A DNA stretch of 64,000 nucleotides from Pilibacter termitis (GTDB taxonomy: Bacteria; Bacillota; Bacilli; Lactobacillales; Streptococcaceae): assembly GCF_900167335.1 (NCBI RefSeq), contig NZ_FUXI01000001.1, positions 101,014 to 165,013 on the forward strand, given 5' to 3'. The notes below the pieces were generated by a model that made no database searches, was not told the origin of the DNA, and saw nothing but the letters and a program-made list of their open reading frames with translations. A program made the position numbers and the translations under genes. Positions within the stretch are counted from its first letter, which is position 1, and every line of letters begins with the position of its first letter. This document shows positions 3,101 to 25,556 of the stretch, one piece after another.

Positions 3101-5770
3101 TTAAATTCCATATTTTTTCCGAGTACGATGAATTTTTTCTAACATTCCATCCGATCCTACATATAGGAAAAATGTTGTAGCAAGTGCGTGTACTAGGTCA
3201 AATGGTAAACCTTGCAAGAGGGAGGCGATAAGCATTTCTTTGGTTATCATCGCTTGCATAATAAGTACGTTTGATATATTCATTATCACACCATAAAGGA
3301 ATAGTGCGGATAAACCGCCAAATATAGCCAATGATAATGGAGTGGCTGAGAGAATTTTTCTTTGGTGCAACCAACCTGCAAGCCAGCCGATAAGGGCAAA
3401 TGAGAGCATTTGCCAAGCAGTCCATGGACCTTGACCGAAGAAAATATTGCTCACAATCGCACTCATTGCTCCAGTGATAAAGCCAACTTCTCCGCCAAGT
3501 GCAATCCCTGAAAGTATCACAATTGCAAGCATTGGTTTAAATTGAGGGAGCATGAAAAATGCCACTCTGCTTGCTACGGCAATAGAAATCAACACCGCAA
3601 TCATCACGAGTTTTCGAGCAATAATTTTTTTTCGCTCAAAACTTAAAAATGAAAACAAAAACACCTCTAATAACGCTAAATTGGAAACAAGAGCATAATT
3701 TCTAACGTCAAGGATTCTTGCTCCTAGAAAAACGGTAAGGACAAGCGTTATAATAAAAAATAGTGTAGAATATTTCCCGATTCCTTCTTTTTTATCTAAA
3801 AGTGGGGGTAAAACTTCTTTTCTTTCTTTTTTTCCTACAACAGTTGTAAAAAATGCTAACATCGAAGCAATATATGAAAATAAAATTCCTCCGTATTTCA
3901 TCAACATTCCTTTGTCACTTGCCATTAAATTTGCCCCTGCACCGCCTGAAAGGAAAGTTTTCAAGCCGTCAAAATTGCGGCTCACATAAAAACTTGTCAA
4001 CATAAAAAGAACTAAGGAAAATGCAAGCAAACCACTTCGTTTATTCGACCATTTTTCCCCTTCAACTTTTTCAGGTAAATCAAAAGCATTCGCCTCTAGC
4101 TCCCACTCGTTTGCGAGAGTTGTATCAAACACTGGATATTCTTCGCCTAACGAAGTCACAATTTCTCTGGCTGTAATGGCTGTTGGCAATTTTTCTCTGG
4201 CAATTAAATTTGCTGATGTCGTGTAAAATTGATTTTCACTGAAAAAACGTGCGGTTTCTTCACTTGAGACAATTTTCCCGTCAAAAAATAACGCACAATT
4301 GTTTGCAATTTCAGCGACAAACTCCAAATCATGTGAAACCATTAAAATAGTAATTCCTTGAAGTTTCAGCTTTTCTAAAATAGTAGCAAATACTTTTTTA
4401 AACCCTCCGTCAAACGCTTTGGTTGGCTCGTCTAGTAGTAAAACGGTTGGTTGCAAAAGCAACAATTTTGCAAGGGCAACTCTTTGCTGTTCTCCACCTG
4501 ATAAGTCAAACGGATGATTGTCTAAAATACTTTGCAAATCACATAATCGCACCATTTGCTCTACTTGTTTTTGAAACGAAACACTTGAGTTCTCACCCAT
4601 TTCCGAAAGCTCTGCAAGCACCGTTTTTTGTGTAAATAAACTACGTGGATTTTGCGGAAGTGTGGCGATACGTTTGCCGTTTGTTGCTTGCTCAAAAAAT
4701 GTTATCTCGCCTCGACTAGCAGGGTATACTCCTGACAAAACCGAGAGAAATGTTGATTTTCCAGTTCCGTTGCCACCGACAATCGCTGTAATCGTCCCTT
4801 TTTCAACAGATAAATCCACTCCTCTTAAAATATCCTCTGTATGCTGTTCGTAGCGAAACCAAAGATTTTTTACAGAAAGTGCGTTTCCTTGCCTGTGCGT
4901 TTTTTCCTTTTCCGTAGAAATTTGCTGACGAATCGAAAGCGTGTTGAACCATTTTTTTCCCTCTTGAATACTTATCGGAGGGGAAGAATTTGTGTTCGTT
5001 GCCCACCATGCTTGCACACTTGCAGGCAAGCTCCAAAAAAGTTTGCTATTTTTTTCTTTTAATGTTTTTAGCAACTCCCTTTTTGGTGATACTGCTTGCA
5101 TTTCCCCATTTTCTAGGACGGCAATTTTATTGACCATTGGAAGAACTTCTTCCAAACGATGTTCAATCATGATAACGGTCACGCCAAGCTCTTTGTGAAT
5201 TTTTTCAACCATTCTTAAAAATTCATTGGCAGCAATCGGATCTAGCTGACTGGTTGGTTCATCAAGTAACAAAATATCTGGGTTTAATGTCATAATAGAT
5301 GCTAAGGCTAATTTTTGCTTTTGTCCACCAGAAAGTTCGCTCACATCTTTGTGAAACCATTCTTGTATGCCGAAAAATGATGCCATTTCTGCAACTCTCG
5401 AACGAATTTTACTCGGATGAAAACCTAAATTTTCCATTGAAAATGCAAGTTCGTGCCAAGTTTTATCCGTCACAATTTGATTTTCTGGAATTTGCATGAC
5501 AAACCCAATTTTTTCCGCCTGCTCTCTTGCACTCATCTCCTGCACTTGCTCACCTGCAATCAAAACACTGCCCATTTTCGTACCATGAGGAGCAATTGCT
5601 GGCTTTAATTGTCTTAAAAGTGTCGTTTTCCCACTTCCAGAATTGCCCATCAAAAGCAGAAAATCCCCCTTTTTCACACTCAACCGAATATCCTTTAGCA
5701 CACGTTTGGAACTTTCAGGATAAGTAAAGGAAAAATCTTTTATTTCGATATAGCTTTCTTCTGTCGCCAT
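3101..5770 (-). CDS. ECF transporter: two ATPase domains fused to an S-like membrane part, probable cobalamin importer
   Basis: This 889-residue protein joins parts usually encoded by three genes. ATPase 1 has Walker A GNSGSGKTT (residues 42-50), signature LSGGQKQK and Walker B ILLLDEPTSQLD. ATPase 2 has Walker A GGNGTGKST (about 330), signature LSGGEQQR (about 423) and Walker B VLLLDEPTKAFD (about 446). From about 577 there are four hydrophobic segments, then from about 720 a six-helix region (SRVAFFMLPQFKPML, FGQGPWTAWQMLSFALIGW) typical of ECF substrate-binding S components. The ATG at 5770 follows AGGAGGCGTATGT and lies inside the last codons of ecfT, so the two are coupled. Cobalamin as substrate is inferred from the upstream riboswitch, the neighbouring intrinsic-factor-like proteins and the eut operon. 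Confidence 0.85.
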   Translation of the reverse strand: MATEESYIEIKDFSFTYPESSKRVLKDIRLSVKKGDFLLLMGNSGSGKTTLLRQLKPAIAPHGTKMGSVLIAGEQVQEMSAREQAEKIGFVMQIPENQIVTDKTWHELAFSMENLGFHPSKIRSRVAEMASFFGIQEWFHKDVSELSGGQKQKLALASIMTLNPDILLLDEPTSQLDPIAANEFLRMVEKIHKELGVTVIMIEHRLEEVLPMVNKIAVLENGEMQAVSPKRELLKTLKEKNSKLFWSLPASVQAWWATNTNSSPPISIQEGKKWFNTLSIRQQISTEKEKTHRQGNALSVKNLWFRYEQHTEDILRGVDLSVEKGTITAIVGGNGTGKSTFLSVLSGVYPASRGEITFFEQATNGKRIATLPQNPRSLFTQKTVLAELSEMGENSSVSFQKQVEQMVRLCDLQSILDNHPFDLSGGEQQRVALAKLLLLQPTVLLLDEPTKAFDGGFKKVFATILEKLKLQGITILMVSHDLEFVAEIANNCALFFDGKIVSSEETARFFSENQFYTTSANLIAREKLPTAITAREIVTSLGEEYPVFDTTLANEWELEANAFDLPEKVEGEKWSNKRSGLLAFSLVLFMLTSFYVSRNFDGLKTFLSGGAGANLMASDKGMLMKYGGILFSYIASMLAFFTTVVGKKERKEVLPPLLDKKEGIGKYSTLFFIITLVLTVFLGARILDVRNYALVSNLALLEVFLFSFLSFERKKIIARKLVMIAVLISIAVASRVAFFMLPQFKPMLAIVILSGIALGGEVGFITGAMSAIVSNIFFGQGPWTAWQMLSFALIGWLAGWLHQRKILSATPLSLAIFGGLSALFLYGVIMNISNVLIMQAMITKEMLIASLLQGLPFDLVHALATTFFLYVGSDGMLEKIHRTRKKYGI

Positions 5771-6648
5771 ACATACGCCTCCTGTAAATTTAATAACAAT
5801 GGAAACCCTAAAAGGCAACCGTACCCAAACCACCCAAATGTCGATTTGACATTGAAAACACCGACTTGTAACATCGGGAAATAGCGAAAATAAAAGACAT
5901 TCATCACAATGTTAAGAATGGAATAGACGAGCAGTCCACTTAGCAATAAAAGACAAAATTTATCTCGCTGTTCAATTTCAAAAATGTGAAAACTTGTTCT
6001 TTTTCCAACGCCGTAGCCTCTTGATTTCATACTATCAGCCGTATCTATCGCATTTTCTAGCGACCAAGTAATCAAAACAGAGACAATCTTAACCATATTT
6101 TTCATACGATTTCGCACATTTCCTATTGTAATTTCTACGCCAATACTTTTTTGTGCTACGGTAATCTCCTTTAGCTGAGCAATAAATCTCGGGATAAATC
6201 TCAAACTCATGGAAAGCAATAAGGAAAGTGACGGAGTAATTTTGCCAAATAAATAGACAAATTTATCCGTTGTCATAATCTGGTGAAAACAACCAAACCA
6301 GAGCATTACGGCTAAAAGCATTCCACCCGTGTAAAGTCCGTAAAGAATGGACTCTAAGGTGAGCGGGTTGCCATTGGGAAAATACCACAAAATCGTTGTC
6401 CCTGCGTGAGAAAATAAGGGATTGATAAGAATTGCCACGAATACTACGGGTAAGAGAAAAGCACTTTTTTTCAACACTTTTCTTATTCCTTGCAAAGAAC
6501 TCAAGTAAAGAAATGCCATTGCTAAAGAGAGAAAAACACCAAGCGGGTGCAAAATCCAAAGCGTCATGGTAAGAGTTATCACAAAAAAGAAAAGGGTTAC
6601 GATAGGATTTCGTCTTGAAAATTCATCTATTTTTTGATTGTTGTTCAT
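5740..6648 (-). CDS. ecfT: Energy-coupling factor transporter transmembrane protein EcfT
   Basis: A 302-residue membrane protein with several hydrophobic segments and the cytoplasmic coupling region of EcfT proteins, including SLRFIPRFIAQLKEI and DSMKSRGYGVGKRTSF with its SRG motif, which docks on the ATPases. Length fits the family. Its 3' end overlaps the start of the ATPase-S fusion by 31 bases. Being next to its own ATPases rather than in a shared ecfAA'T module suggests a dedicated (group I) ECF transporter. The upstream gene ends about 80 bases away, so this is probably part of one transcript from the riboswitch. Confidence 0.9.
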   Translation of the reverse strand: MNNNQKIDEFSRRNPIVTLFFFVITLTMTLWILHPLGVFLSLAMAFLYLSSLQGIRKVLKKSAFLLPVVFVAILINPLFSHAGTTILWYFPNGNPLTLESILYGLYTGGMLLAVMLWFGCFHQIMTTDKFVYLFGKITPSLSLLLSMSLRFIPRFIAQLKEITVAQKSIGVEITIGNVRNRMKNMVKIVSVLITWSLENAIDTADSMKSRGYGVGKRTSFHIFEIEQRDKFCLLLLSGLLVYSILNIVMNVFYFRYFPMLQVGVFNVKSTFGWFGYGCLLGFPLLLNLQEAYVWRQKKAISK

Positions 6649-6727: not shown

Positions 6728-7579
6728 TTACTGAGGGGAACCGACATCTTTTCCTAAATCGCACGTGTAGAGCCATTCTACAACATCGCCATTTTGCAAC
6801 ACATAGCGACTAGAACCGTAGTTTGGAAACCAATTATTGACTTTGTATAACCAACCAGACAGTGGACCGCAGTCAAATTCATAAATATTGGCAATTCCCT
6901 CGATGTAGGCACTATTGTAACCAGGAGTAAAGGTCGCCTCTAAATGTATTCCTTTTTCTTTTGTCACTCGTTGAAGCACTTCAAAAGCACTCTCATTTTT
7001 GGAAAACTCGACTTCCATTTTTGGTAATATTACCCCGTTGTTTGGGATAATACTTTTTTTCTCTGGGTCAAGTTTGTCCATGTTTTTCAAAATCGTATCC
7101 ACTCGAATACTCACGGTTGCTCGGTAAGTTTCTTTTGTATCAACCTCTACATCTTCTGGATTAACAGGTTTTGGCTTAGTATTTGAGGAGGAAGTAGGTG
7201 TCGAATTGTTCGGAGTACTAGCAGTTTTACTGCCTCCTTGACTTTGCACTTGACTTCCTTGTTCATCGTTTGCACCATGGTTGACAACATTTTCCGAGAA
7301 TTGAACAACTTCTTCTGTTTTTCCCGCTGTGGATTGACTCGTTGCTTTCTTACTTGCTTGCGTGCTGCTCGAGCTTTTTTTCTCAGAGGAACTCGTTGTT
7401 TTTCCTGTTGCTTTGCTTGTTTGAGACTCTTTTACAACTGTCGAACTATTGGAAGTAGCATTACTCGCTTGGTCGCTTTTGGACGCTTGATTGAAGAAAA
7501 CACACCCAAAGACGATAATCAGCAAGTAAAGTACCCCAAGCAAAATTTTCCCAGTTTTTGTTTTCATTACATTCTTCAT
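6728..7579 (-). CDS. Membrane-tethered DUF4430 (transcobalamin-like) protein
   Basis: A 283-residue exported protein. After a short basic N-terminus comes a hydrophobic segment (about residues 8-26, IVFGCVFF) that could be a signal anchor or an atypical lipobox with Cys. A long Ser/Thr/Lys-rich linker follows (about 30-160), then a C-terminal domain with SAFEVLQRVTKEKGI, CGPLSGWLYKVNNWFPNYG and NGDVVEWLYTCDLGKDVG, the DUF4430 pattern related to the beta domain of intrinsic factor and transcobalamin. Proposed role: membrane-proximal cobalamin binding that hands ligand to the ECF importer (inference). The ATG at 7579 is two bases after the stop of the LPXTG gene; a second ATG at 7567 is possible. 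Confidence 0.8.
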   Translation of the reverse strand: MKNVMKTKTGKILLGVLYLLIIVFGCVFFNQASKSDQASNATSNSSTVVKESQTSKATGKTTSSSEKKSSSSTQASKKATSQSTAGKTEEVVQFSENVVNHGANDEQGSQVQSQGGSKTASTPNNSTPTSSSNTKPKPVNPEDVEVDTKETYRATVSIRVDTILKNMDKLDPEKKSIIPNNGVILPKMEVEFSKNESAFEVLQRVTKEKGIHLEATFTPGYNSAYIEGIANIYEFDCGPLSGWLYKVNNWFPNYGSSRYVLQNGDVVEWLYTCDLGKDVGSPQ

Positions 7580-7581
7580 TC

Positions 7582-10500
7582 CTACCACACTTTCTTTATT
7601 TTCAAGACAAAGGCAGTTAAGACACCGATAATTCCCATGAATAACACCCACAAAATGATTTTTTGATTTTTAGCAAACCAACCTTTTTCAACAACGTCAC
7701 CAGTAACAGGCAATGTATAATCAGCTCTACCTATTTTTTGCGGTTCATTTATATCACTTGCTACATCGGTTGCTTGAGTGGTCGTTTTTGCTTGTTTTTC
7801 ATCGCCAGAATACGTGCCAAGTTCAGAAGTACGTTCTCGGTTAGTCGTTAATGTTTCAGGAGTGCTTGTTGTTTTGATAATGCTTGTCGTTGTACCATTT
7901 ACGCCATTGGCACCATTCGATCCGTTTTTCCCGTTGTTTCCGTCAACTCCATTTGCTCCATTCGTACCATTTTTCCCGTCTATACCATTTTGACCATTGG
8001 CTCCAGCTTTTCCAGTATCGCCTGTTGGACCTTTTTGTCCGTCCGCACCATTGATTCCGTTTGTGCCGTTTGTGCCGTTTGTACCATTCGTACCGTTTTG
8101 ACCGTTTGTTCCGTTTGTTCCGTTAGTACCATTTTGTCCGTCTGTGCCGTTTTGGCCGTCCGTGCCGTTTTGGCCGTCCGTGCCGTTTGTTCCGTTAGTA
8201 CCATTTTGTCCGTTCGTGCCATTCTGACCGTCCGTGCCATTCTGACCGTCCGTGCCGTTTTGACCATTAGAACCGTTATTTTCACCAGTTGAATTGGCAA
8301 TATCTTTTGCATCTCGCATGTCGTAAAGACGGTTTTCGTTGTTTTTCAAACGACTATAAGCTGTTAGAGCGTAAGCGGCTTGATGAGTTGCCATTTTATC
8401 GCTTTTTCCTGTTGTACTTGTACTATAATAAAAACTTCCGTCTTGAAGTTGATAACTTAGCAAGGCTTTTAATGGAGTATTCTTCCCTTTGGTAAAACGA
8501 ACATCGCCTCCTGCATCTATGCCTAATTCTGACAAAGCAGTCACCACTTGAGCAAGAGTGCAAGCATTTTCTTCGCCCCAACTTCCCGCAGGCTTGAATG
8601 TACCAGCGTTTGACATAGTGTCTGAAAGATATTTAATTGCCAAATTAACTGCGGTTGCTACTTTTGGATTGGCATTATTATAATATGGAGCAAGAGCTTG
8701 CAATGCCATAGCCGTCATATCTGGGTCTGGTTCATCTCCAGTTAAATTCCAGCCACCATTTGCTAGTTGTTTCTCAAGAATTTCTGTAATCAATCGTTGA
8801 CGTAAACCAGCAAGTTCCTCACTCTGATATTCTCTACTATCCAAAGCAATCAAAGCATAAATCGTTCCATTCACACCTTGCCATTTCAAATAATCAAAGT
8901 CTTGGAATCCTTTCAACAAATTCATTCCTTCAATATTTTGTGCATTTTTACCCAAGGAAGATAGCGTAAGGATTATTCGACTCATTTCCGTTGATTTTCG
9001 CTCAATTTTTCCCGTACTCGCATTTTTCAATTTGCCTGTTTCTGTATCATAATTGGCTTTGAGATAATTGACGAGTTGTTGGTAATACTTCGTGTAAAGT
9101 GTATCGTTTTTGATATTTCCACGTGCTAAAGCGAGAATTTCCCAATCTTGTTCTGTTGCTACTGGATTTCTTTCTGCAACTTTTTCGATTTGTTGTAACA
9201 CTTTCGTCAAATTTTGATTTGGAAATACATCTTCTGGAACCGTTGGTTTTTCTGGCTCTGTTGGTTTCTCTGGTTCCACTGGCTTTTCTGGTTCTTCCGG
9301 ATCTGTCGGTTTCTCTGGATTCGTTGGTTCTTCTGGTTCTGTTGGTTTTTCTGTTTCTTTTTCCAACTCTAGTGAAATAGTTGGCAAAATCCCAAACGGG
9401 AAAGGTCCCACTGCCACGGCTGTCATATTTGCTGGAACACCTGCTAAAGGAATGGAACGATGACTACCGATAGTAGAACCCATGGAACCTACCACTACAT
9501 TTCCATTTAAAACAGTTTTTGTCTTATCCGTAATCGTATAATTGACCACAAAATCTGTAATCAATTCACTATACTGTTTTGCCGAATTGCTCTTGAACTC
9601 CAACTCTCCGTCAGAATAGACAATACTTGGTGCCAATTTATTGCCAAACCCCGGATTGTAAATAGCAGCCATTTTTTCAATTGCTGGCTCAATTCCTTTT
9701 AAGGTAATTTTCGCTGTATCGCCAATTTTAAATTTCTCATTTGGTCGAGTGATATTTTCCACTTGCACATTTAAGGATTTTGCTTTGACGATATAATAAC
9801 GTTTCGCTCCTTTATGCGTAAGCTCTACGATATTGCGTCCTTCTGTTACGAAAATGTGGAATTTGCCATTTTTATCCGCCTCATACTCCGTCCAAGCTGT
9901 GCCAAATTCTGCTTGATTCAGTGGTTTATGCACACGCACACTCGTTTCTTTTGCAGGTGTAAACTCTAACTCTCCTGCTCCAATCGTTTTATCAAAATAA
10001 ACCGTATCAAAATCGTTTCTTAGTGAAAGACCTGTGTCAAAATTCTCTCCACCGTCAACATTTACCACAACGGAAAGCGTATTTCGTTTGTCTATTCCAT
10101 TGAATTTCAACGCTTTTCCATTTTCGTCCACATAATCCAATGCTCCGTAAGTAACTTTGACAATCGCAAGTCCTTTTTTCTTCGCTGTAATTTTCAACTG
10201 CTCTCGTCCGACATTGCCGATGTTTTCAATTTCTGTGGCATCTCCTAAAAGTTCAAAATGATATTCTGGCTCGACAAAATTATTTGCCACCACTCCTTGA
10301 GTTGCTTGCCACACTCGAAACGTATCAAGGTTGAAACTTTCGCCAATGCTTAAATTCACCGTCCCTGTGTCGTCTAAATTTGTATAGACATTGTTGTTAT
10401 ATTGTGAATCACTTACCTCGCTTGCACCTGTTACAACATCTAAAGTGGCACTTTCAGCATTGCTCCATTCGTTTTCTTTTGTCAAATCTATTTTGACAAG

Positions 10501-12252
10501 AGAGCCGTCTGAGGTGTTTTTGAAAAACTTCACCTGTTTGACAAATCCTGCTTTTGTTGCCTCAAAATGCACATTGATTTTGTCGTCTTTTGGTAAATCA
10601 TTGACAGAATAGGTGTCGTATTCATCTGTTGACAAGCTCTCTTCTTTTTTCAATGGATACTCTGTAAACGCTGTGAAATTTTTCTCCGATTTTTGATAAA
10701 CCCCGATTTTCGCTCCTTTTGTCACTTGCACAAAGGTTGCGGTCGAATTGTACTTCAGCTGATTCATCCCATCTTGCAATTTCTTTGTTACGTTTTGAAC
10801 TATCTTTTCAGAACTTGCTGTATTTGCATAGACGTTCTTTGCATTTTCTAATGCAGTTGAAAAAACTTGCCATGATTCTGCGGTATATTTTGATTCTTTG
10901 CTAAGGAAATTTTCCGCCTCATCAATCACAACTTTCAAAGATTGACGACTTTCCTCGCTTGCAGGAGGTTCTGCCTCAATATTTCGCACCTCTGAAAATT
11001 GGGAAGTGAAACTTTCTAATTCGTACCCACCAAGCGTTTTATCTGGCACGTAAGCAATTGGTTTTTCTCCGTCAAAAATCACTTTGCCCGCTCTAAAATT
11101 CGGAGCCGTTGTTCCTTTGAAAATAACGCTTTTCAGATTCGGTGTATTGGTAAAATTTTTATCATAAATTTCATTTACCGCCAAATCACCTGCAAAAATA
11201 ACCGTTTCTAAAGAGGTGTTGGAAACAAGTAATTTCCCTGTTATCCGTATGCCTTCTGGCAAAGTCAATGTTTTCACCCCTTGCCAATTTGACAGCGGAC
11301 TACTTCCGTCTTGTGCTTGACCGTAACTTGGTCCGTTCGCCGTAGTTGCTTGCGAACAATCCAATTCTTGCAATGTTGCACCAAGGATTTCTCTCGCATT
11401 TCCTATATCATTATTGGCAAGTGTATTGGCAACCATTCCTGTGATTTTTAATTTTTGAATAGCAGAATAATCCCAATTTCCTTCGGTTTGACCATGCTCT
11501 TTTAGAGCATTTTGGATTTTCTCAATGATTTTTCCGTTAGGATTTTCAATGACTATCTCCTCTTCAATCACACTACTTGTTGCGTTCCCGCTCAACGCAA
11601 GCAGTGCTGATGAAACTTCTTGCTCCGTTGCAAGAGGGTTAATCAGAACATCTAATGCTTGCTTTTTCACTTGTTCACTTGCCGTAGAAGCAAACAATCC
11701 TCGCATGAGTTCCGTTTTATTGGCATGAGTGTAAGGAGCATTTGCCTCAATGCCTAAGTCATTGCCATAATCTTCTACTGAAAATTGCCAACGAATAACA
11801 TCTTTCTCTTGAAGAACGCGACTTCCTGCACTTGTGTTGATTTGCTCATGATTAACCGTCACCATCCAACCAGATGTACTCGAATAATCCATTTCTCCTA
11901 AAGAACCATCTCCGCTCCCAGATTGGAGTTTTGTTTTAATATAAGGTGGCGGTGCAACTTTTCCATTATCAATCGAATAAATCCTTGACAAATAAAAACT
12001 ATTACCTGAACCAAACGCATCATAGTTCAATTTTTTGTCATTTAAGATTTTTCGTGTCGCATCTTCGACCGTTGTTCCTTTTGGCAAGCTCACTTTTGTT
12101 GGCTCAACATAATAACCTTGCCCTAAATTATACCCCTCCACATCAACATAAACCTCAACACTCGAATTGTTTTCTGCTGCAAAAACGGCAAGCATTGGAC
12201 TTGGTTGAAATACTAGGACGGCTAATATTACTAATCGCAATAATTTTTTCAT
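7582..12252 (-). CDS. LPXTG-anchored intrinsic-factor-like surface protein with collagen-like stalk (putative cobalamin binder)
   Basis: This 1,556-residue cell-wall protein has, in order: a signal peptide (1-25); a DUF4430 domain (about 30-170, STSGWMVTVNHEQI, KDVIRWQFSVEDYGNDLG); a leucine-rich BspA-like stretch (about 255-420); a FIVAR-like helical repeat (about 438-500); a beta-rich region of unknown type (about 510-985); a Glu/Pro/Lys-rich linker (about 985-1020); an alpha6/alpha6-type domain with GGWNLTGDEPDPDMTAMAL (about 1020-1315), as in intrinsic factor and terpene-cyclase folds; G-x-y triplets (about 1325-1456); and LPVTGD, a membrane segment and KIKKVW for sortase anchoring. Having both halves of a transcobalamin-like fold plus an upstream B12 riboswitch makes cobalamin capture the best guess; adhesion is an alternative. 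Start chosen by AAAGGGAATACG before the ATG. Confidence 0.85.
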   Translation of the reverse strand: MKKLLRLVILAVLVFQPSPMLAVFAAENNSSVEVYVDVEGYNLGQGYYVEPTKVSLPKGTTVEDATRKILNDKKLNYDAFGSGNSFYLSRIYSIDNGKVAPPPYIKTKLQSGSGDGSLGEMDYSSTSGWMVTVNHEQINTSAGSRVLQEKDVIRWQFSVEDYGNDLGIEANAPYTHANKTELMRGLFASTASEQVKKQALDVLINPLATEQEVSSALLALSGNATSSVIEEEIVIENPNGKIIEKIQNALKEHGQTEGNWDYSAIQKLKITGMVANTLANNDIGNAREILGATLQELDCSQATTANGPSYGQAQDGSSPLSNWQGVKTLTLPEGIRITGKLLVSNTSLETVIFAGDLAVNEIYDKNFTNTPNLKSVIFKGTTAPNFRAGKVIFDGEKPIAYVPDKTLGGYELESFTSQFSEVRNIEAEPPASEESRQSLKVVIDEAENFLSKESKYTAESWQVFSTALENAKNVYANTASSEKIVQNVTKKLQDGMNQLKYNSTATFVQVTKGAKIGVYQKSEKNFTAFTEYPLKKEESLSTDEYDTYSVNDLPKDDKINVHFEATKAGFVKQVKFFKNTSDGSLVKIDLTKENEWSNAESATLDVVTGASEVSDSQYNNNVYTNLDDTGTVNLSIGESFNLDTFRVWQATQGVVANNFVEPEYHFELLGDATEIENIGNVGREQLKITAKKKGLAIVKVTYGALDYVDENGKALKFNGIDKRNTLSVVVNVDGGENFDTGLSLRNDFDTVYFDKTIGAGELEFTPAKETSVRVHKPLNQAEFGTAWTEYEADKNGKFHIFVTEGRNIVELTHKGAKRYYIVKAKSLNVQVENITRPNEKFKIGDTAKITLKGIEPAIEKMAAIYNPGFGNKLAPSIVYSDGELEFKSNSAKQYSELITDFVVNYTITDKTKTVLNGNVVVGSMGSTIGSHRSIPLAGVPANMTAVAVGPFPFGILPTISLELEKETEKPTEPEEPTNPEKPTDPEEPEKPVEPEKPTEPEKPTVPEDVFPNQNLTKVLQQIEKVAERNPVATEQDWEILALARGNIKNDTLYTKYYQQLVNYLKANYDTETGKLKNASTGKIERKSTEMSRIILTLSSLGKNAQNIEGMNLLKGFQDFDYLKWQGVNGTIYALIALDSREYQSEELAGLRQRLITEILEKQLANGGWNLTGDEPDPDMTAMALQALAPYYNNANPKVATAVNLAIKYLSDTMSNAGTFKPAGSWGEENACTLAQVVTALSELGIDAGGDVRFTKGKNTPLKALLSYQLQDGSFYYSTSTTGKSDKMATHQAAYALTAYSRLKNNENRLYDMRDAKDIANSTGENNGSNGQNGTDGQNGTDGQNGTNGQNGTNGTNGTDGQNGTDGQNGTDGQNGTNGTNGTNGQNGTNGTNGTNGTNGINGADGQKGPTGDTGKAGANGQNGIDGKNGTNGANGVDGNNGKNGSNGANGVNGTTTSIIKTTSTPETLTTNRERTSELGTYSGDEKQAKTTTQATDVASDINEPQKIGRADYTLPVTGDVVEKGWFAKNQKIILWVLFMGIIGVLTAFVLKIKKVW
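7885..8280 (-). repeat. Collagen-like G-x-y triplet tract inside the LPXTG protein gene
   Basis: About 45 consecutive glycine triplets, mostly GQN, GTN and GTD, are encoded by near-identical nine-base units. Proline is almost absent, unlike animal collagen but like many bacterial collagen-like stalks. The low-complexity DNA leaves spurious open frames in several other registers. It is prone to length change by slippage. Confidence 0.9.
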
Positions 12253-12434: not shown

Positions 12435-12530
12435 GTAACATTTTGGCGAGCGACCCGACTTTTACGGTTGATTAGAGACAGTCTAGGAGTTCCACCTAGT
12501 TCCCTCAGTTCCAAAATTTTTATCTATCTA
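12435..12530 (-). promoter_or_regulatory. Cobalamin riboswitch aptamer
   Basis: On the minus strand the conserved B12-box order is present: GAGGGAACTAGGTGGAACTC, then CTAGACTGTCTC, then ACCGTAAAAG, then AGTCGGGTCGCTCGCC. This matches the aptamer pattern GGTGxAAxTCC, ACxGT and AGCCxGGxxxCCxGCC base for base in its invariant positions. A terminator hairpin follows. The gene it precedes encodes an intrinsic-factor-like protein, which fits repression of B12 uptake when cobalamin is plentiful. No promoter of its own was clear, so it may act on read-through from eutQ or on a weak local promoter. Confidence 0.8.
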
Positions 12531-12557: not shown

Positions 12558-13001
12558 TTATTGATTTGCCCAATCAGCAGGATAGGTGACATACATAAAA
12601 CGTGCTTTTCCTTTTACGGAAAATTCAATGTCACTTCCTTTCGGAATGTAAATAATTTCTCCCTTCTCTACGCGATTTACTCTACCGTCTACAATAATAT
12701 CTAGCGTGCCGTCAATCACATAGTCAATTTCGTCATAATCTAAATGCCAAGGGAAAGTGGACGCTTCCATTTGCATCAACCCACACCCTAAGCGTGGACT
12801 TTCCTCAAGCGTGTATAAATCATGACAATAAACTTTATCCGTTGGATTTCCTGTATCCAGTCTATCTTTTTCCGTCACCTCTACCTGTGGTAAGCTTACC
12901 TTAATAATACCACTTTTATCGGAAATTTTCGATAGGGAAAATTGTTCCATAATAATTTCTCGTACCATTTTTTCAACTGTTTCTTTTGTTAAATTATTCA
13001 T
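12558..13001 (-). CDS. eutQ: Ethanolamine utilization protein EutQ (cupin acetate kinase)
   Basis: A 147-residue protein with a C-terminal cupin fold (LGCGLMQMEASTFPWHLDYD, YVIDGTLDIIVDGRV, KGEIIYIPKGSDIEF). EutQ proteins have been reported to have acetate kinase activity in ethanolamine breakdown. The N-terminus (TKETVEKMVREIIMEQF) is an amphipathic helix of the kind that targets enzymes to microcompartments. It is the last gene of the eut operon, with GAGGAAGTATAA before the ATG, and is followed by the B12 riboswitch. Confidence 0.9.
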   Translation of the reverse strand: MNNLTKETVEKMVREIIMEQFSLSKISDKSGIIKVSLPQVEVTEKDRLDTGNPTDKVYCHDLYTLEESPRLGCGLMQMEASTFPWHLDYDEIDYVIDGTLDIIVDGRVNRVEKGEIIYIPKGSDIEFSVKGKARFMYVTYPADWANQ

Positions 13002-13115
13002 TTATACTTCCTCGTTTTTTCTTGATTATTTTTCTAACAAACAAACTTGCCATTTATCCAAAGAATAAGGGCAACTCTAATGATTTTTCTCAATATGTTG
13101 TTCATTCACTGCTTG

Positions 13116-14204
13116 TTAATCTTTTTTCGACAACATACGATTTGCCATAAATTGAGCAACAAAAATCGCTGTAATCCCTGCAACTAATTTCCCAACAATC
13201 ATCGGGAACAACATTTCTTTTGCTGCTCCAGCTGTAAATCCTAAGTGGTCACCAAATACAAACGCTGCTGATACTGCAAATGCTACATTGATGATTTTTC
13301 CACGGTTGTCCATATCTCCTAACATTTCAAACATCGGAATAGAGTTTGCAAGAGTGGCAACCAAGCCTGCTGCTGCTTTTTCATTCATACCAAGCAATTG
13401 TCCAACTTTTTCTAATGGTTTAGCAAAAAGTTTGGTAATAACAAATACTAAACAGAAAGCTCCCGCAAGTGTTAGAGCGATACTTCCGACAACTTCTATC
13501 CCCTCGGTAACAGGTGCAATATTTTTCACTGGTTTAAAACCAACCAATAAATCCATTGCTCCAAGTACCAAGCCTAAAGTTGCCACAATTACCACACCTT
13601 GCCCGAAAATAGTAAATCCTTTGATCATTTTTTCAGGAATTAAAGCAAGACCTAGCATAATTAAAACTGCAAAAATAACAATCGGAATAAGATTTTTCAA
13701 AATCATAATAATTGGCATACCCGCCGTCAAACCACCTGCCAAACAACCTAGAGGAATCGTTACAATACCGCTTAGTACACCTGTTGCTAAAAAGCGGTGG
13801 TCTTCTTTTTTAATAATACCAAGTGCTACTGGAATGGTAAACACAATCGTAGGTCCAAGCATTGCTCCAAGAATTGTTCCAGCAAATAAACCAGCTTGTG
13901 GGTCTTCTGCAAGTTTTTGTGCTAAATAAAATCCACCCATATCATTTGCCAAAAGCGTTGTCGCAAACATAGACGGATCTGCTCCAATTGCTTTGTAAGC
14001 TGGCACAACGATTGGTGAGAGAATATCAGCCAATACAGGAGCCAATACGATAATTCCGACCATTGACATTGCCAATGCTCCCATTGCGTTAATTCCTTCC
14101 TCGAAATGCTCGCCAAGTCCAATTTTTCCGCCGATACATTTATCCACGGCTCCGATTACCATAAAGGCAACCATAACATACATAATAATTTCATTAATGC
14201 TCAT
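13116..14204 (-). CDS. eutH: Ethanolamine permease EutH
   Basis: A 362-residue polytopic membrane protein with about ten or eleven hydrophobic segments, beginning MSINEIIMYVMVAFMVIGAV and containing NDMGGFYLAQKLAED and ANSIPMFEMLGDMD, typical of EutH. It takes up protonated ethanolamine when supply is low or the medium acidic (family knowledge). It sits between eutN and eutQ as in enterococcal operons; the ATG follows AAGGAGAGTTAAAA. The 110-base gap to eutQ shows nothing strong. Confidence 0.93.
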   Translation of the reverse strand: MSINEIIMYVMVAFMVIGAVDKCIGGKIGLGEHFEEGINAMGALAMSMVGIIVLAPVLADILSPIVVPAYKAIGADPSMFATTLLANDMGGFYLAQKLAEDPQAGLFAGTILGAMLGPTIVFTIPVALGIIKKEDHRFLATGVLSGIVTIPLGCLAGGLTAGMPIIMILKNLIPIVIFAVLIMLGLALIPEKMIKGFTIFGQGVVIVATLGLVLGAMDLLVGFKPVKNIAPVTEGIEVVGSIALTLAGAFCLVFVITKLFAKPLEKVGQLLGMNEKAAAGLVATLANSIPMFEMLGDMDNRGKIINVAFAVSAAFVFGDHLGFTAGAAKEMLFPMIVGKLVAGITAIFVAQFMANRMLSKKD

Positions 14205-14261
14205 TTTTAACTCTCCTTATAAATTTTTATTTTTTTGCAACAAATAAATTTTCTTGCAAGA

Positions 14262-14525
14262 TTATTCTTGTTCGACAGAATCCACTATGCCGACAATGGT
14301 TGAATCTACTGGGATTTCTTGCTCTAGTGCTACTCTTGCAGCACTTCCTGTTACGACAATGACTGTGTCTCCTACACCAGCACCCACATTGTCGGCTGCG
14401 ATAAACGTGTCTTGCGTGCTATTTTCTTGATGATCTAACCGCTCAACGACCATAAATTTTAAGCCTGTTAAACGCTCATTTTTCCGTGTCGACCAAATAT
14501 TCCCGATTACTCTACCAAGAATCAT
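14262..14525 (-). CDS. eutN: Microcompartment vertex protein EutN
   Basis: An 87-residue EutN/CcmL-family protein (MILGRVIGNIWSTRK, AADNVGAGVGDTVIVVTGSAAR) that forms pentamers closing the corners of the bacterial microcompartment shell. Its ATG overlaps the TGA of the preceding gene (ATGA), so translation is coupled, and the GGAGGGGGAG site lies in that gene's last codons. Confidence 0.95.
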   Translation of the reverse strand: MILGRVIGNIWSTRKNERLTGLKFMVVERLDHQENSTQDTFIAADNVGAGVGDTVIVVTGSAARVALEQEIPVDSTIVGIVDSVEQE

Positions 14526-15034
14526 TTACTCCCCCTCCTTGCAATAGAATGTTTTCGCTTTTTCCTTAACTCCTCTTGATAAAGAAATTTCTCAAATTCT
14601 TCATCAGAATGGATAAAGTGAACGCCGTAGCTTTCTAGTTTTTTCATCATTTCACCGATTTCTCGCCAAATACCAAAGCGTGTAGCACTCCGCAGTTCTT
14701 TTAGTGAAAATGAAGTAGAAAGAATGAATACACTTTTTTTCTTTAGCAGAGCTTGCAATATCGTTTTTGTTTCTTCATCGTTTTCTTGAAGATTGGCAAG
14801 TGCCGAAAGTTGCCCAAGCGTGAGATTGGCAACTAAGAGCATATCCGCCAGCGAGATTTCTTGCGAAAGAACAAGATAATTGGTTATTTTTTCAAAAATC
14901 GCCTCGGGAAGATTTTTTTCATCTCCTAACAACATTGCACACAATGTATTTGTTGATGTATCTTTTATGTCTAGTCTTTTTATGACCTCCTCTACTATTT
15001 TTTGAATGAGAATTTCTATTTCTTCGCTTTTCAT
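14522..15034 (-). CDS. Eut-operon protein of unknown function, possibly PduM-like
   Basis: A 170-residue protein not confidently recognised. It begins with an amphipathic helix (EEIEILIQKIVEEVIKRL) like those at the ends of microcompartment cargo, and the rest looks mainly helical (SLADMLLVANLTLGQLSALA) with a basic C-terminus (ELRKKRKHSIARRGSK). Its place between pduL and eutN, and its size, recall PduM-type structural proteins, but no diagnostic motif was seen. The start at 15034 is chosen for the GGAGGGAAGTGC site; an upstream in-frame ATG has none. The stop overlaps the eutN start. Confidence 0.7.
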   Translation of the reverse strand: MKSEEIEILIQKIVEEVIKRLDIKDTSTNTLCAMLLGDEKNLPEAIFEKITNYLVLSQEISLADMLLVANLTLGQLSALANLQENDEETKTILQALLKKKSVFILSTSFSLKELRSATRFGIWREIGEMMKKLESYGVHFIHSDEEFEKFLYQEELRKKRKHSIARRGSK

Positions 15035-15064
15035 GCACTTCCCTCCAATCATATTTACGAAAAA

Positions 15065-15697
15065 TTATTTTACGATTTCCCCACGCATTCCTCTTGTAAA
15101 TCCACAAGCGTTTGCCTCATCTGTGTCAATGTGCATATATGTCGCAAAATCTTTGCTTACACGAATAACCACGTCATCAAAGATCAAAGGACGCACTCCG
15201 CAGGCTTTTACTTTCACAATTTCTTCATTGACCACACCGAATTTTTCAGCATCTTCTGGCGTCATGTGAATGTGGCGTTTAGCAGCAATGAGTCCTTTTT
15301 CTAAATGCACAACATTTTCGCCATTCATCAAAGTAACTCCCGGTGTACCATTGATGTCGCCACTTTCCCGAACAGGTGCGTTTAAACCAATCGAACGCAA
15401 GTCTGTCAGAGACAATTCCACTTGTGAAGAATTTCGAGTTGGTCCCAAAATAATCACGTTGCTAAACATTCCTTTCGGCCCAATAACAGCAATTCTTTGC
15501 CCTGAGGCAAATTGCCCCGGTTGAGACAAATCTTTTGCCTTCGTCAATTCAAACCCTTTGCCAAATAGTGACTCTAAATCCTTTTGTGAAAGATGAACGT
15601 GTCTAGCACTTGCTTCTATTTCAAAGGAATGGTCACTTTCTTTTTCCTTTATTCGTTTCACAACTTCACTAACAATTTTTTCTATGTTTGTATCCAT
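15065..15697 (-). CDS. pduL: Phosphate propanoyl/acetyltransferase PduL (EutD role)
   Basis: A 210-residue PduL-type phosphotransacylase, unrelated in sequence to the classical Pta. Two zinc-binding regions are visible: EASARHVHLSQKDLESLFG and AAKRHIHMTPEDAEKFG. It converts acetyl-CoA to acetyl phosphate and recycles CoA in the microcompartment lumen. The N-terminus IEKIVSEVVKRIKEK is a probable encapsulation helix. In this operon it stands in for EutD. The ATG follows AAGGAGCAACAAA. Confidence 0.95.
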   Translation of the reverse strand: MDTNIEKIVSEVVKRIKEKESDHSFEIEASARHVHLSQKDLESLFGKGFELTKAKDLSQPGQFASGQRIAVIGPKGMFSNVIILGPTRNSSQVELSLTDLRSIGLNAPVRESGDINGTPGVTLMNGENVVHLEKGLIAAKRHIHMTPEDAEKFGVVNEEIVKVKACGVRPLIFDDVVIRVSKDFATYMHIDTDEANACGFTRGMRGEIVK

Positions 15698-15916
15698 TTT
15701 GTTGCTCCTTACTTATAGAATATTTTTTGAAACCTTTTAGGTTTTGGTTTGCTTAGTTGATTGCTTAGCGGGGGAACTTTTAGTTTTGCTAAAAGCAAGT
15801 CATGCAATTATAAATTTTGCATTTACCTGAAAACACGATAGCTCATATTCTCAGGTAAACGAGGTTAGAGTATTCTTTCGTTTTAGGGAATCCCTAACCT
15901 CAATTTACAGTACCTT
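15698..15916 (-). other. Hairpin-rich spacer between eutM and pduL
   Basis: On the minus strand at least three stems follow one another: GAGGTTAG with CTAACCTC, TTTACCTGA with TCAGGTAAA, and AACCT with AGGTT. Part of it (GCTAAA, GCAAGTC and flanks) resembles the spacer after the other eutM copy. None ends in a convincing T run, so RNA processing or stabilisation is more likely than termination (inference). Confidence 0.6.
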
Positions 15917-16201
15917 TTATTTTTCTATTGCTTTAGGCAAAATCGCATCGACTTCTGTGTGTGGACGTGGAATTACGTGAACGCTCATTAATTCACCAAC
16001 ACGTTCTGCTGCTGAAGCTCCTGCATCAGTTGCTGCTTTTACTGCTCCAACATCGCCACGAACCATTACCGTTACAAGCCCTCCACCAACTTGTTCTTTT
16101 CCAACTAACTCAACGTTGGCTGCTTTTACCATTGCATCTGCTGCCTCAATTGCTCCGACTAATCCTCGTGTTTCAATCATTCCTAGTGCGTTTAATGACA
16201 T
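15917..16201 (-). CDS. eutM: Microcompartment hexamer shell protein EutM (copy 1)
   Basis: A 94-residue single-BMC-domain protein ([38 protein letters not shown]) that forms hexameric tiles of the microcompartment facets. It is about nine-tenths identical to the next gene upstream; the main differences are GGGL versus GSGL, the AGASAAERV segment and the last residues (PKAIEK). Structured spacers lie on both sides. AAGGAGAGCAAAAAA precedes the ATG. Confidence 0.95.
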
Positions 16202-16369
16202 TTTTTTGCTCTCCTTATAATTTAATTTTTTGTTCTACCTAAATTGTTTGCTTAGAGGGGAAATTTTTAGCTTGGCTAAAGCAAGTCGTACAACTCAGCT
16301 TACTTCCTAAATTTTCCCCTTCTTCGCAAAAGACTTTCGCTACGCTTTAATTTTGTGTTCTCAGATTTT
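16202..16369 (-). other. Hairpin-rich spacer between the two eutM genes
   Basis: On the minus strand AGGGGAAAATTTAG pairs with CTAAAAATTTCCCCT across about 40 bases that hold a smaller hairpin. The core resembles the spacer at 15698-15916, consistent with duplication of eutM together with its flank. No T run marks it as a terminator. Confidence 0.6.
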
Positions 16370-16651
16370 TTATTTCATTGATTTTGGTAAAATCGCATCT
16401 ACTTCTGAGTGTGGGCGTGGAATTACGTGAACACTTACCAATTCTCCCACACGACTTGCTGCAGCACTTCCTGCTTCTGTTGCCGCTTTTACTGCTCCGA
16501 CATCCCCACGAACCATGACTGTTACAAGTCCTGAACCAACTTGTTCTTTTCCAACAAGTTCAACATTCGCTGCTTTTACCATTGCATCTGCTGCTTCGAT
16601 TGCTCCGACTAATCCACGTGTTTCTACCATTCCTAATGCGTTTAATGACAT
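16370..16651 (-). CDS. eutM: Microcompartment hexamer shell protein EutM (copy 2)
   Basis: A 93-residue BMC protein ([36 protein letters not shown]) closely matching copy 1. The start at 16651 is chosen because GGAGGATTATATT precedes it; an upstream in-frame start has no site. It begins 23 bases after eutE, so shell and enzyme are on one transcript. The C-terminus ends PKSMK. Confidence 0.95.
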
Positions 16652-16673
16652 AATATAATCCTCCAATTATTTT

Positions 16674-18143
16674 CTATTTATTTTTCAACTGCTCAAAAAC
16701 TTGAGCGACAATTGACTCGATGAGTTGTTCTTGACTACAACTTGTTGCGTTGACCTCACATTGCGTATCCATTGCTCGAATTTCTTCAAGTCCCATTTGA
16801 CCAAAAGCAACTCGGCGAATGTTCAGCAAATGAAGTGGGGTAATGTTATCACTTGATGCACTGCCACCAATTGCTCCATTTCCAAGGGTCAAAGCAGGTG
16901 CGAGAGCTGTACTTGCTCCAATTCCACCTAACGCTGCTGGTGTGTTGATGAGCAAGCGATTCACTGGTTTTTTCAATGCAAATTCTTTGATTAACTCACG
17001 ACTTTCCGTGTGCATTGCCATTGTATGCCCAGCACCTTCGCCCATGAGAATTTCAATTGCCAAATTACAAGCCTCTTCGTGATTTTCCACCACGTAATAA
17101 GCCAAAATCGGACAAAGTTTTTCACGAGAGTAAGGATATTGCAGCCCGACATTTTCTTCTGGAGCAAGCAAAACACGTGCGTCCGTTGGAATGGTAATCT
17201 CTGCAAGTCGTGCAATAGTATGCACATCACGTCCAACAATTTGCGGGTTCATCGTGCCATTTGGTCGCAAAATAAATTTTGACAATTTCTCCGCTTGCTC
17301 TTTTGTTAAGAAATATCCTCCATTTTTTGCAAACTCTGCTTTAATCTGAGCATCCGTCGATTTTTCGACAATAACGGATTGCTCAGATGCACAAATAGTC
17401 CCATTATCGAACGTTTTACTATCCATAATACATTTGACCGCTTTGGGAATATCAGCCGTTGAAGTGATATACGCTGGACCATTCCCCGGTCCTACACCAA
17501 TCGCTGGTGTGCCAGATGAATACGCTGATTTCACCATTGCATTCCCACCCGTTGCCAAAATCAAATTGGTCAATGGATGTTTCATCAACTCTTGCGTTGC
17601 TTGCATAGTCGGAATACTAATCACACCTACTGCATCTACTGGTACGTTCAATTCCGCCAATGCCTCACGAATAATTTCAACGGTCGCTAAAATAGATTTC
17701 AACGCTCCCGGGTGAGGTGAGAATACGATACTGTTCCCAGACTTAATCGCAATCATTGCTTTGTAAATCGCAGTTGAAGTTGGGTTCGTTGACGGAATAA
17801 TTCCTGCCACCACTCCGACTGGAACAGCTACCTCTATAAGTTTTTCTTCCATATCCTCACGCAAAATCCCGACCGTTTTCATGTCTTTAATAGAGTCGTA
17901 GACCACTTTTGAGGCAAACAAGTTTTTAATCACCTTATCTTCCCAGCGACCAAAACCAGTTTCTTCATTTGCCATTTTGGCTAATTCCACTCTTTTTGCA
18001 TAGGTTTTTTCAGAAATTGCTCGCACAAGTTCATCTATTTTTTCTTGAGAAAATGTAGCTAGAATTGCTTGAGCTGCCTTTGCTTTTTTCAGTAAATCTC
18101 GCACCTCTTGAATAGAGCGTAAATCTTTATCTTCTAATGCCAA
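16674..18143 (-). CDS. eutE: CoA-acylating acetaldehyde dehydrogenase EutE
   Basis: A 489-residue aldehyde dehydrogenase that turns the toxic acetaldehyde released by EutBC into acetyl-CoA with NAD+. The catalytic cysteine lies in TFDNGTICASEQS, and the nucleotide-binding region includes IIPSTNPTSTAIYKA. The C-terminal tail EQLIESIVAQVFEQLKNK is an amphipathic helix likely to direct packaging. The start codon is TTG, placed directly after the TAA of the upstream BMC gene with GAGGAGGGG in that gene's last codons, so translation is coupled. Length is normal for the family. Confidence 0.95.
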   Translation of the reverse strand: MALEDKDLRSIQEVRDLLKKAKAAQAILATFSQEKIDELVRAISEKTYAKRVELAKMANEETGFGRWEDKVIKNLFASKVVYDSIKDMKTVGILREDMEEKLIEVAVPVGVVAGIIPSTNPTSTAIYKAMIAIKSGNSIVFSPHPGALKSILATVEIIREALAELNVPVDAVGVISIPTMQATQELMKHPLTNLILATGGNAMVKSAYSSGTPAIGVGPGNGPAYITSTADIPKAVKCIMDSKTFDNGTICASEQSVIVEKSTDAQIKAEFAKNGGYFLTKEQAEKLSKFILRPNGTMNPQIVGRDVHTIARLAEITIPTDARVLLAPEENVGLQYPYSREKLCPILAYYVVENHEEACNLAIEILMGEGAGHTMAMHTESRELIKEFALKKPVNRLLINTPAALGGIGASTALAPALTLGNGAIGGSASSDNITPLHLLNIRRVAFGQMGLEEIRAMDTQCEVNATSCSQEQLIESIVAQVFEQLKNK

Positions 18144-18656
18144 TTATTTCCCCTCCTCTTTTTTATAGTTCAAAATTGAGCGAACCAATAATTCTTTATT
18201 TGCAAATTTAATTTCCTTTTTCGTCAAATTTGGCAAATTAATTGCATAAGCAAGCGAGCGAAGGTCAACGACTTTCATTTTGTTCAATTCTTCTTCTGAA
18301 AAATTCTCCTCAGAATGTTCCTCTCCTTGCTCCATTTTTACTTCATTTCTTTCAATCGTTTCGATTGTTTTTTCTTTCTCTTGTTGCTTTTTGGTAAGTA
18401 GCGTATCTGTTTGGCTATCGACTCTTGCAATCACGTGATGACTTAAATAACCATTTAATTGTTTGGCGATTTCTACTCCTGCATCAATTGCTGCTCTTAT
18501 CGCACCAACATCTCCACGCACAACAACAGTCGTTAAGCCACCCTTTGTTTTTTCTGATGATTGAAGATGAACATCTGCTGACTTGAGCATAGCATCTGTC
18601 ACAGCTACCGCCGCAAGAAATCCACGCACCTCCACCATTCCTAATGCTGTTTCCAT
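18144..18656 (-). CDS. BMC shell protein with C-terminal SAP/Rho-N-like domain (EutK-like)
   Basis: A 170-residue two-part protein. Residues 1-85 are a BMC domain (MVEVRGFLAAVAVTDAMLKS, VVVRGDVGAIRAAIDAGVE). A charged linker rich in Glu and Lys follows, then about residues 125-165 read ELNKMKVVDLRSLAYAIN and KFANKELLVRSILNYK, resembling a SAP or Rho N-terminal nucleic-acid-binding fold. Enterobacterial EutK also joins a BMC domain to a putative nucleic-acid-binding domain, but of another fold. It may act as a shell adaptor. It lies between eutL and eutE; its stop abuts the TTG of eutE. Confidence 0.85.
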   Translation of the reverse strand: METALGMVEVRGFLAAVAVTDAMLKSADVHLQSSEKTKGGLTTVVVRGDVGAIRAAIDAGVEIAKQLNGYLSHHVIARVDSQTDTLLTKKQQEKEKTIETIERNEVKMEQGEEHSEENFSEEELNKMKVVDLRSLAYAINLPNLTKKEIKFANKELLVRSILNYKKEEGK

Positions 18657-18667
18657 ATGCTCACCTA

Positions 18668-19321
18668 CTACATTACACGTGGTGTATCAGCGACTCGACA
18701 AACTGTACTAGCAAATGCCTCAACAGCTGCTTTACAAGCTGATTGTGTCCCCGTCAATAATGCTCCTGCAAAGTTTGTTTCAGACGGAGGACCATAGAAA
18801 GTTGCCAATTTCACATCAGCAGATTTCAACGCTTCATCAATGCCCACAATCGCCTCGTTTGGCGGAGCAATCAAGTAAGCAATTGCCTCGCCTTCGGTAA
18901 TGCCTGCCTCATTTGACAAAAAGCTACCTGTTCTGCTGACAACGTGTGCAAGATAAGGAATCGAATCATCCTCGTTTGCACTTACGAACGCTACGTCTTC
19001 TTCGATAACACGAACTGCCGTTTGAAGTCCGCTATTCACTTCTGCTGGCGAAGGACCTGCGATAATCGCAATAACCTCACCTGCTAATTTTGTACTAGCA
19101 TTTCCAGCTCCAGCGTACATACTTCTTGCATAAACGACTTCAACAGCCGCCTCTTTTGTCGCCTCATCTACTGCGATATACGTTACATCATCACAGTCCG
19201 AAGTAATAATCCCAAGCGAGCGAATCCCTTTTTTCAATTTCAACTCTTTTGCCAAAGAATCATCAACATTTGGAATGACTTGCACGCTTAGAACACTTGC
19301 ACTTAATCTATCATTTTTCAT
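18668..19321 (-). CDS. eutL: Microcompartment shell protein EutL
   Basis: A 217-residue tandem-BMC protein forming trimers with a large gated pore thought to pass substrates and cofactors. Recognisable stretches are LSASVLSVQVIPNVDDSLA at the N-terminus and GSFLSNEAGITEGEAIAYL. Length matches EutL. It begins 17 bases after eutC, with GAGGTGACGTAAGA before the ATG. Confidence 0.95.
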   Translation of the reverse strand: MKNDRLSASVLSVQVIPNVDDSLAKELKLKKGIRSLGIITSDCDDVTYIAVDEATKEAAVEVVYARSMYAGAGNASTKLAGEVIAIIAGPSPAEVNSGLQTAVRVIEEDVAFVSANEDDSIPYLAHVVSRTGSFLSNEAGITEGEAIAYLIAPPNEAIVGIDEALKSADVKLATFYGPPSETNFAGALLTGTQSACKAAVEAFASTVCRVADTPRVM

Positions 19322-19338
19322 TCTTACGTCACCTCTCT

Positions 19339-20229
19339 TTACGCCTGTTTCAAATCAATTCCTGATTTTTTCGCATCTAGCATTTTCTTAATCAAATCTG
19401 CAATATATGCTCCTGCCTCAACTGCTGGTGTTCCGCCTTTGTGAATACTGGCAAGCACTGTTCTACGTGCCTCTGGCATACCAACAGTTGGACGATAGGC
19501 AACATATGCACTCATTGCCTCCGCTGTTACAAGTCCGGGACGTTCACCAACGAGCAAGCAGACAACATCTGCATCTGTATATTCCCCAATCGCATCCATT
19601 GCTGGCACACGACAATATTTGACGAAAATAATTTCTCCCACTTCAATGCCGTGCATTTTCAATCCTTGTTTGATAGAAGGCAAAATTTCTTCGATATTTG
19701 CTCCAATGGCAGCTGAAGATAAGCCGTCGCCGACAACAATTTGCACTTTTGGTTTCTTTGGAACTGCCGCTCTGATTTTTTCTTCATTCGCTTTGTCAAA
19801 CTGACGACCACGAGGAGGGCTTGTTAAATAATCATCTTTTGATTCACAAACTGTTTTGACTGAGACGAAATTCATTTTTTCTACTAGTTCCTCTGGCACT
19901 TCTGAGAAAACAGAGTCTTGTGCAGCAGCGTGGTCAGCACGAAAACGAAGTTGAGTTTGCAATTTGTACCTTGTTCCTTCACGTCCGCACCCAAGTCGTG
20001 CTGGCGTGTAAAATTTCATTTTCAAATAGCCTTCACGATTTTTTGGATTTTCCACCAATAGTTGCTTACGAATGTCAATTTCTGTAATATCTTCTAGCAC
20101 ACCGTCCTCAATAACAGAAGGTGATTGGCTAAGTGTTGCGACAGTTTCCTTTACTTGAGTTGTATTGCCAGATTGTGTCATTTCTTTTAAAATTGACTCA
20201 ATCATTGTTCTTAATTCTGTAGCCTTCAT
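19339..20229 (-). CDS. eutC: Ethanolamine ammonia-lyase small subunit EutC
   Basis: A 296-residue subunit of the AdoCbl-dependent lyase that splits ethanolamine to acetaldehyde and ammonia. It contributes to the cobalamin-binding face; [36 protein letters not shown] and [20 protein letters not shown] are typical. Its N-terminus ([17 protein letters not shown]) is an amphipathic targeting helix. It follows eutB by about 40 bases. Confidence 0.96.
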
Positions 20230-20268
20230 GTGTCTTTCCTTTCTATCTCTAGCGTTATTAATGTCTAT

Positions 20269-21633: not shown

Positions 21634-21790
21634 TTGTTTGTTCCTTTCTTTTTGTTAATTTATTTTTTGTTTTTCTCGTGTCTCAAATTTTTTTAAGGCG
21701 GTTTCGCCGCAGTTTGCAATACTAAAATTTCAAACAAGCAAATGGTTTCGCTCAATGCAGCTGACTTCCCCCACCTCTTCACTTTTCATT

Positions 21791-23224: not shown

Positions 23225-23267
23225 AATATTCCTCCTCTCACACTTTTTAAGCAAAGGTTTTATTATC

Positions 23268-23326
23268 AAAAAAGGACGTTTAAAAGCATGAGAATTTCTT
23301 CTCTCTACTTTTAAGCGTCCTTGCTT
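23268..23326 (-). promoter_or_regulatory. Terminator with ANTAR-type hairpin before eutA
   Basis: On the minus strand AAGGACGCTTAAAAG pairs with CTTTTAAACGTCCTT and ends in T residues, making a strong terminator that overlaps the last codons of eutW. Its 5' arm is shared with the small hairpin AAGC-AAGGAC-GCTT (23313-23326), whose six-base loop has A at position 1 and G at position 4, the EutV recognition pattern. An upstream partner is less clear; AGTGC/GCACT at 23365-23379 has a five-base loop. Confidence 0.6.
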
Positions 23327-25297: not shown

Positions 25298-25457
25298 TAA
25301 CACTCTCCTCATTGAAAGTTTTTCATGCTTTCAACCAATAAACTTATGTGAAATGTTTTCTATCAAACAAAAATATGAAGAAGAAAACCTAAAACATTCT
25401 GCTCATTGGTTCGTATTTTGTATTAAGCAAAGGAACCGCGTATCTTCCTATGTACTT

Positions 25458-25552: not shown

Positions 25553-25556
25553 CTCA

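Follow-up and report, generated by a model that had tools for sequence, protein, structure and literature searches.

In ECF transporters, the S component topples against EcfT and is expelled when ATP binds (PMC10368641). Single-molecule work on ECF-CbrT gave results consistent with S dissociation as an integral step of the cycle, and ECF subunits are described as "sometimes fused into multidomain proteins" (PMC12075633). In ECF-CbrT from Lactobacillus delbrueckii (PDB 6fnp), CbrT is a separate protein, and one ECF module is shared with seven other S components (PMC10368641). A related operon type was described by Burroughs et al. in 2007: surface proteins with SLBB (DUF4430) and alpha/alpha toroid domains are encoded together with CbiO-like ATPase and CbiQ-like genes, and such operons in low-GC Gram-positives were predicted to scavenge vitamin B12 (PMC1796856). 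Both the B12-scavenging operon type and occasional fusion of ECF subunits are therefore known, whereas the fusion of two ATPases to an S component reported here is apparently undescribed. We found no description of this fusion, or of the additional helical hairpin that it carries, in the open literature searched, and an earlier mention is possible in subscription papers.

The window analyzed here, a 64,000-nucleotide stretch of the Pilibacter termitis genome, encodes an 889-amino-acid EcfA-EcfA'-EcfS fusion at 3101..5770 on the minus strand, with its ATG at 5770 and its stop at 3101. The original prediction of two full ABC ATPases and an S-like membrane part in one 889-residue frame was accurate in coordinates and length, the strand being minus. 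Its description as a three-part fusion holds for the polypeptide, a three-domain A-A'-S chain, but the transporter has four parts, with EcfT (CbiQ family; PF02361, E 1.4e-11) encoded by a separate adjacent gene (5740..6648, minus) that overlaps the start of the fusion by 31 nt. The first ATPase domain comprises residues 8-238 (5057..5749, minus), the best stretch for TIGR04520, for which the fusion scored 333.8 bits against a cut-off of 315. The second spans residues ~296-513 (4232..4885, minus), with the best PF00005 stretch at 315-450. Both halves carry an intact set of motifs, namely Walker A (G42-T50 and 332-339), the signature (LSGGQ at 146-150 and LSGGE at 423-427), Walker B with the catalytic Glu (E171 and E448), and the H-loop (H204 and H480), and these key residues were invariant across 49 fused homologues. 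Judged from profiles and motifs, both halves are ECF-type ATPases.

The remainder of the chain was compared with CbrT and other S families. Residues 718-887 (3110..3619, minus) form a six-helix, CbrT-like S core. The Pfam match to the S-component family was weak (PF07155, E 6e-7, residues 718-864), and in a phmmer search of residues 540-889 against the PDB, CbrT (6fnp) was the top match at E 3e-6. With a profile of 40 relatives, 6fnp was the sole PDB match at E <= 0.01 (E 5.9e-14), making CbrT the nearest solved relative. An AlphaFold2 model built from 49 fused sequences had a mean pLDDT of 85.6 and a pTM of 0.78. A fold search with the full 889-residue model was swamped by ATPase matches; with the C-terminal model alone, Foldseek placed S components at the top, namely TmRibU (at a probability of 1.00 and a target TM-score of 0.70), HmpT, PanT, and ThiT, although E-values for S components were 0.03 or worse despite probabilities of up to 1.00. 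The AxxxA motif in helix 1, which contacts EcfT, corresponds to residues 725 and 729, which are A and S in the Pilibacter fusion; across 49 fused relatives, residue 725 was A in 43 and S in 6, and residue 729 was A in 47. The PF07155 hit, the 6fnp profile match, and the S fold found by Foldseek rule out a non-ECF membrane family for the C-terminus. The C-terminal part is thus, by homology, an ECF S component as originally proposed and a distant homologue of the cobalamin protein CbrT, with the reservation that sequence cannot give specificity.

The AA and S genes of unfused relatives often overlap by 3-39 nt, so that a single indel introduced by sequencing or assembly error could join them. 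This explanation deserves almost no credence, because the same fusion recurs in independent assemblies, many of which share the added hairpin. Granulicatella sp. WM01 carries the same full-length fusion in a syntenic operon. When GTDB genomes were scanned with an alignment of the S domain and the 80 nearest of 333 relatives were examined, a set biased towards the query, 65 were A-A-S fusions, mainly from Clostridia, with some from Coriobacteriales and from MAGs labelled archaeal. Two of the 15 relatives counted as unfused are probably fused as well, one being cut at a contig edge (L069) and the other having a broken frame (L126). Among 398 evenly sampled Bacillota genomes, homologues at E <= 1e-20 were present in 110, of which 16 (4%) had a frame of at least 700 amino acids of the expected kind, the fusions in this sample being called by frame length; a seventeenth long frame (G880) proved to be a different fusion. 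Among strong matches in 396 Lactobacillales genomes, the fusion occurred only in Pilibacter and Granulicatella. The fusion is therefore genuine and widespread rather than unique to Pilibacter, and a frameshift or assembly join can be dismissed. In a tree of S domains, three to four changes between the fused and unfused states were required; constraining the fused proteins to one clade was not rejected (p-AU 0.84), so the fusion may have arisen once and been split again in some lineages.

Several individual loci in this survey showed features of their own. Two contigs labelled Bathyarchaeota and Nitrososphaerota (L064 and L066), with bin names of the termite-gut MAG type, carry a Clostridia-type fusion, which may reflect gene transfer or mis-binning. 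In Cellulosilyticum ruminicola (L126:5391-8861), EcfT is in two pieces and the A-A/S frame is broken with a 39-nt overlap; these broken frames may be a sequencing error or a pseudogene. A single-contig genome has a 737-amino-acid frame (L160:1613-3826, minus) consisting of a signal-peptide-like helix, an alpha/alpha toroid, SLH-like repeats, and a CbrT-like S component, that is, a second kind of fusion in which S is joined to a putative B12-capture protein.

Four hydrophobic segments ahead of the S-like core had been noted as extra and unexplained. Structure prediction placed four helices there (576-598, 620-645, 666-686, and 689-712), followed by the S core to residue 887, and a further helix (600-618) between TM1 and TM2 on the predicted outer side. 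Only part of this region is special to the fusion. TM3-TM4 (residues 666-712; 3635..3775, minus) is ordinary in the S family: all close relatives of the S domain have it, whether fused or not, and the unfused ones have eight helices made up of TM3-4 and the core. TM1-TM2 with its extracellular loop (residues 576-645; 3836..4045, minus) is specific to fused proteins, having been detected by profile in 46 of 65 fused proteins and in none of the unfused ones, and a second sample agreed. About 17 fusions lack the hairpin, which is therefore dispensable for fusion. Many members share a conserved G(L/F)xxF(I/L)SGG pattern in its outer segment. K and R residues abound in the linker preceding TM1, in the loop at 646-665, and at the C-terminus; because of these segments and the even number of helices, the predicted topology places the ATPases, the linker, this loop, and the C-terminus in the cytoplasm.

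A profile of TM1-2 compared with one of TM3-4 gave a probability of 63% (P 7e-5), against at most 3.8% for 24 control windows and 3.5% for a reversed control; with a TM3-4 profile from unfused proteins, the probability was only 3.1%. An origin of the TM1-2 hairpin by tandem duplication of TM3-4 is thus hinted at, but no more than tentatively. Two unfused S proteins of ~400 amino acids (L161:3467-4660 and L163:3572-4795, both minus) have a different and longer hydrophobic N-terminal extension, so the N-terminal position of S proteins appears to be a site of variable decoration.

The covalent chain would impose a 1:1 stoichiometry of A, A', and S and a single substrate, and S could not diffuse off unless the chain were cleaved. 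Cleavage itself was considered: the fused protein might be a precursor that is proteolysed between A' and S, leaving S free as in group II transporters, with the fusion setting only the expression ratios. Linker residues ~563-571 are predicted to be disordered (pLDDT < 50 in the AlphaFold2 model), and the linker varies in length and sequence across relatives, as such processing would allow. Nevertheless, a hairpin conserved in fused proteins only suggests selection for the joined form, and the fusion has been kept across many families with varied linkers; we consider cleavage improbable and prefer the intact chain.

Upstream of EcfT, the operon encodes two proteins with PF14478 (DUF4430). One is a membrane-anchored, transcobalamin C-terminal-like SLBB protein (6728..7579, minus; PF14478, E 4.9e-14), for which ATG 7579 is a likelier start than the GTG at 7651 from which the frame was listed; its domain is conserved at 52-68% identity to 23 homologues, and PDB searches with this protein found no match. 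A lipoprotein assignment for its family was rejected, as only 16 of 70 members had even a loose lipobox and most had a plain N-terminal membrane anchor. The other is a wall-anchored protein of 1556 residues (7582..12252, minus) that combines DUF4430, an alpha/alpha toroid, a collagen-like stalk, and an LPVTG motif, as expected of a transcobalamin-like SLBB surface protein; when profiles of the toroid and of DUF4430 were searched against the PDB, transcobalamin itself was not among the significant matches, and the toroid profile matched squalene-hopene cyclases. Collagen-like NGT/NGQ repeats lie at 7980-8312 of the window and are probably a stalk of variable length. Elsewhere in the genome, a third DUF4430 domain occurs in a 154-amino-acid frame away from the operon (L142, G000:C32:58774-58968), and at 77.9 bits it outscores both operon copies. 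EcfT was present at ~60, DUF4430 at 55, and toroid genes at 49 of ~66 distinct fused loci, a set in which many loci end at contig edges, showing that the layout of EcfT, DUF4430, and toroid genes around the fusion is conserved.

An AdoCbl-II (cobalamin) riboswitch (12440..12517, minus; 41.6 bits against a gathering threshold of 36.5) lies upstream of this four-gene operon, ~190 nt ahead of the wall-protein gene. Cobalamin-class riboswitches were also found at the 5' end of the operon at the Granulicatella locus and at five of eight fused loci in the next scan (L063, L083, L089, L101, and L103); in another scan, which covered seven fused loci and one unfused locus, none of the fused loci had a riboswitch ahead of the operon, although their flanks were often truncated. 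The neighboring ethanolamine utilization cluster (12558..25312, minus) includes the AdoCbl-dependent eutB (20269-21633, minus) and eutC (19339-20229, minus), and a PduO-type cob(I)alamin adenosyltransferase is encoded at 27346..28029 (minus; TIGR00636, E 3.3e-57). No CbiD was found in the Pilibacter genome. The presence of eutB/eutC and PduO together with the absence of CbiD fits a host that imports B12 for use. The gene for the eut response regulator is preceded by an AdoCbl riboswitch of its own (window positions 25425-25565, minus), which presumably resembles the control RNA of Enterococcus and Listeria eut genes. The operon contains no BtuC (FecCD) permease or BtuF with an ATPase, and so does not have the composition of a BtuCDF-type importer; two adjacent FecCD permease matches on other contigs could represent another route for B12 or for iron-siderophores.

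Taken together, we consider it likely that the fused A-A'-S protein and its EcfT partner form an ECF importer that resembles group I in being dedicated to one substrate, here vitamin B12 or a related cobamide. That its substrate is fixed to cobalamin is supported by genomic context only. The same architecture might instead carry cobinamide, another corrinoid precursor, or a tetrapyrrole such as haem, given that CbrT also carries cobinamide (PMC5997447) and that an ECF haem importer exists (PMC7299338). We regard such a substrate as unlikely: the upstream cobalamin-class riboswitches and adjacent B12-dependent genes speak against a non-cobalamin substrate, and the nearest solved relative of S is CbrT rather than any other S family.

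For a cobalamin importer of this kind, we infer a capture relay followed by tethered toppling. The wall-anchored transcobalamin-like protein and the membrane DUF4430 protein would capture B12 outside and hand it to the S domain, which would bind it in an outward-facing state, topple against EcfT, and release it inside. The fused A-A' pair, on binding and hydrolyzing ATP, would then push S upright again, out of the EcfT site but still within the complex. The tie to A', consisting of a ~35-residue cytoplasmic linker and the TM1-2 hairpin, would allow toppling and bar departure from the ATPases. The imported B12 would supply the neighboring ethanolamine ammonia-lyase. The fullest form of this scheme, in which S never leaves the motor, the DUF4430 protein docks on the extracellular loop of TM1-2 after capture at the wall, and full dissociation is dispensable, is put forward as a conjecture that has a real chance of holding but somewhat more of failing. 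If it holds, ECF turnover would not require S to dissociate fully, in this lineage at least. The naturally occurring and widespread fusion, CbrT-like and with its S component tethered, offers a ready test of whether S must dissociate, and if the uncleaved fusion transports normally, S need not diffuse away. The system also connects the 2007 prediction of surface proteins resembling transcobalamin with one particular S component, and so offers a candidate for the Gram-positive equivalent of B12 capture and import.

Compared with known systems, the locus extends the SLBB operons of 2007, for which the accessible part of the paper mentions no fused S domain and leaves the S component unidentified (PMC1796856). 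Unfused operons with AA, S, EcfT, and DUF4430/toroid genes occur in Lactobacillales, Paenibacillus, and Clostridia (L023-L028, L115, and L128). They share with the fused loci the gene order, an S family with TM3-4, and, at several loci, cobalamin riboswitches, but their S gene is separate, often overlapping, and its product lacks the TM1-2 hairpin. Group I transporters such as BioMNY likewise have a dedicated S component whose A and T partners are encoded alongside it; S is held non-covalently there (PMC10368641) and covalently in the Pilibacter fusion. Here S is fused to A-A' and EcfT is adjacent, in a genome with three other EcfT loci, and in place of the free, exchangeable S component of group II, S shares the reading frame of the ATPases in the gene. 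With ECF-CbrT, the Pilibacter system shares homology in the S core, two ECF ATPases with EcfT, and a cobalamin context; it differs in that S is fused to the ATPases, four helices are added at the N-terminus of S, and transcobalamin-like partner genes accompany the transporter.
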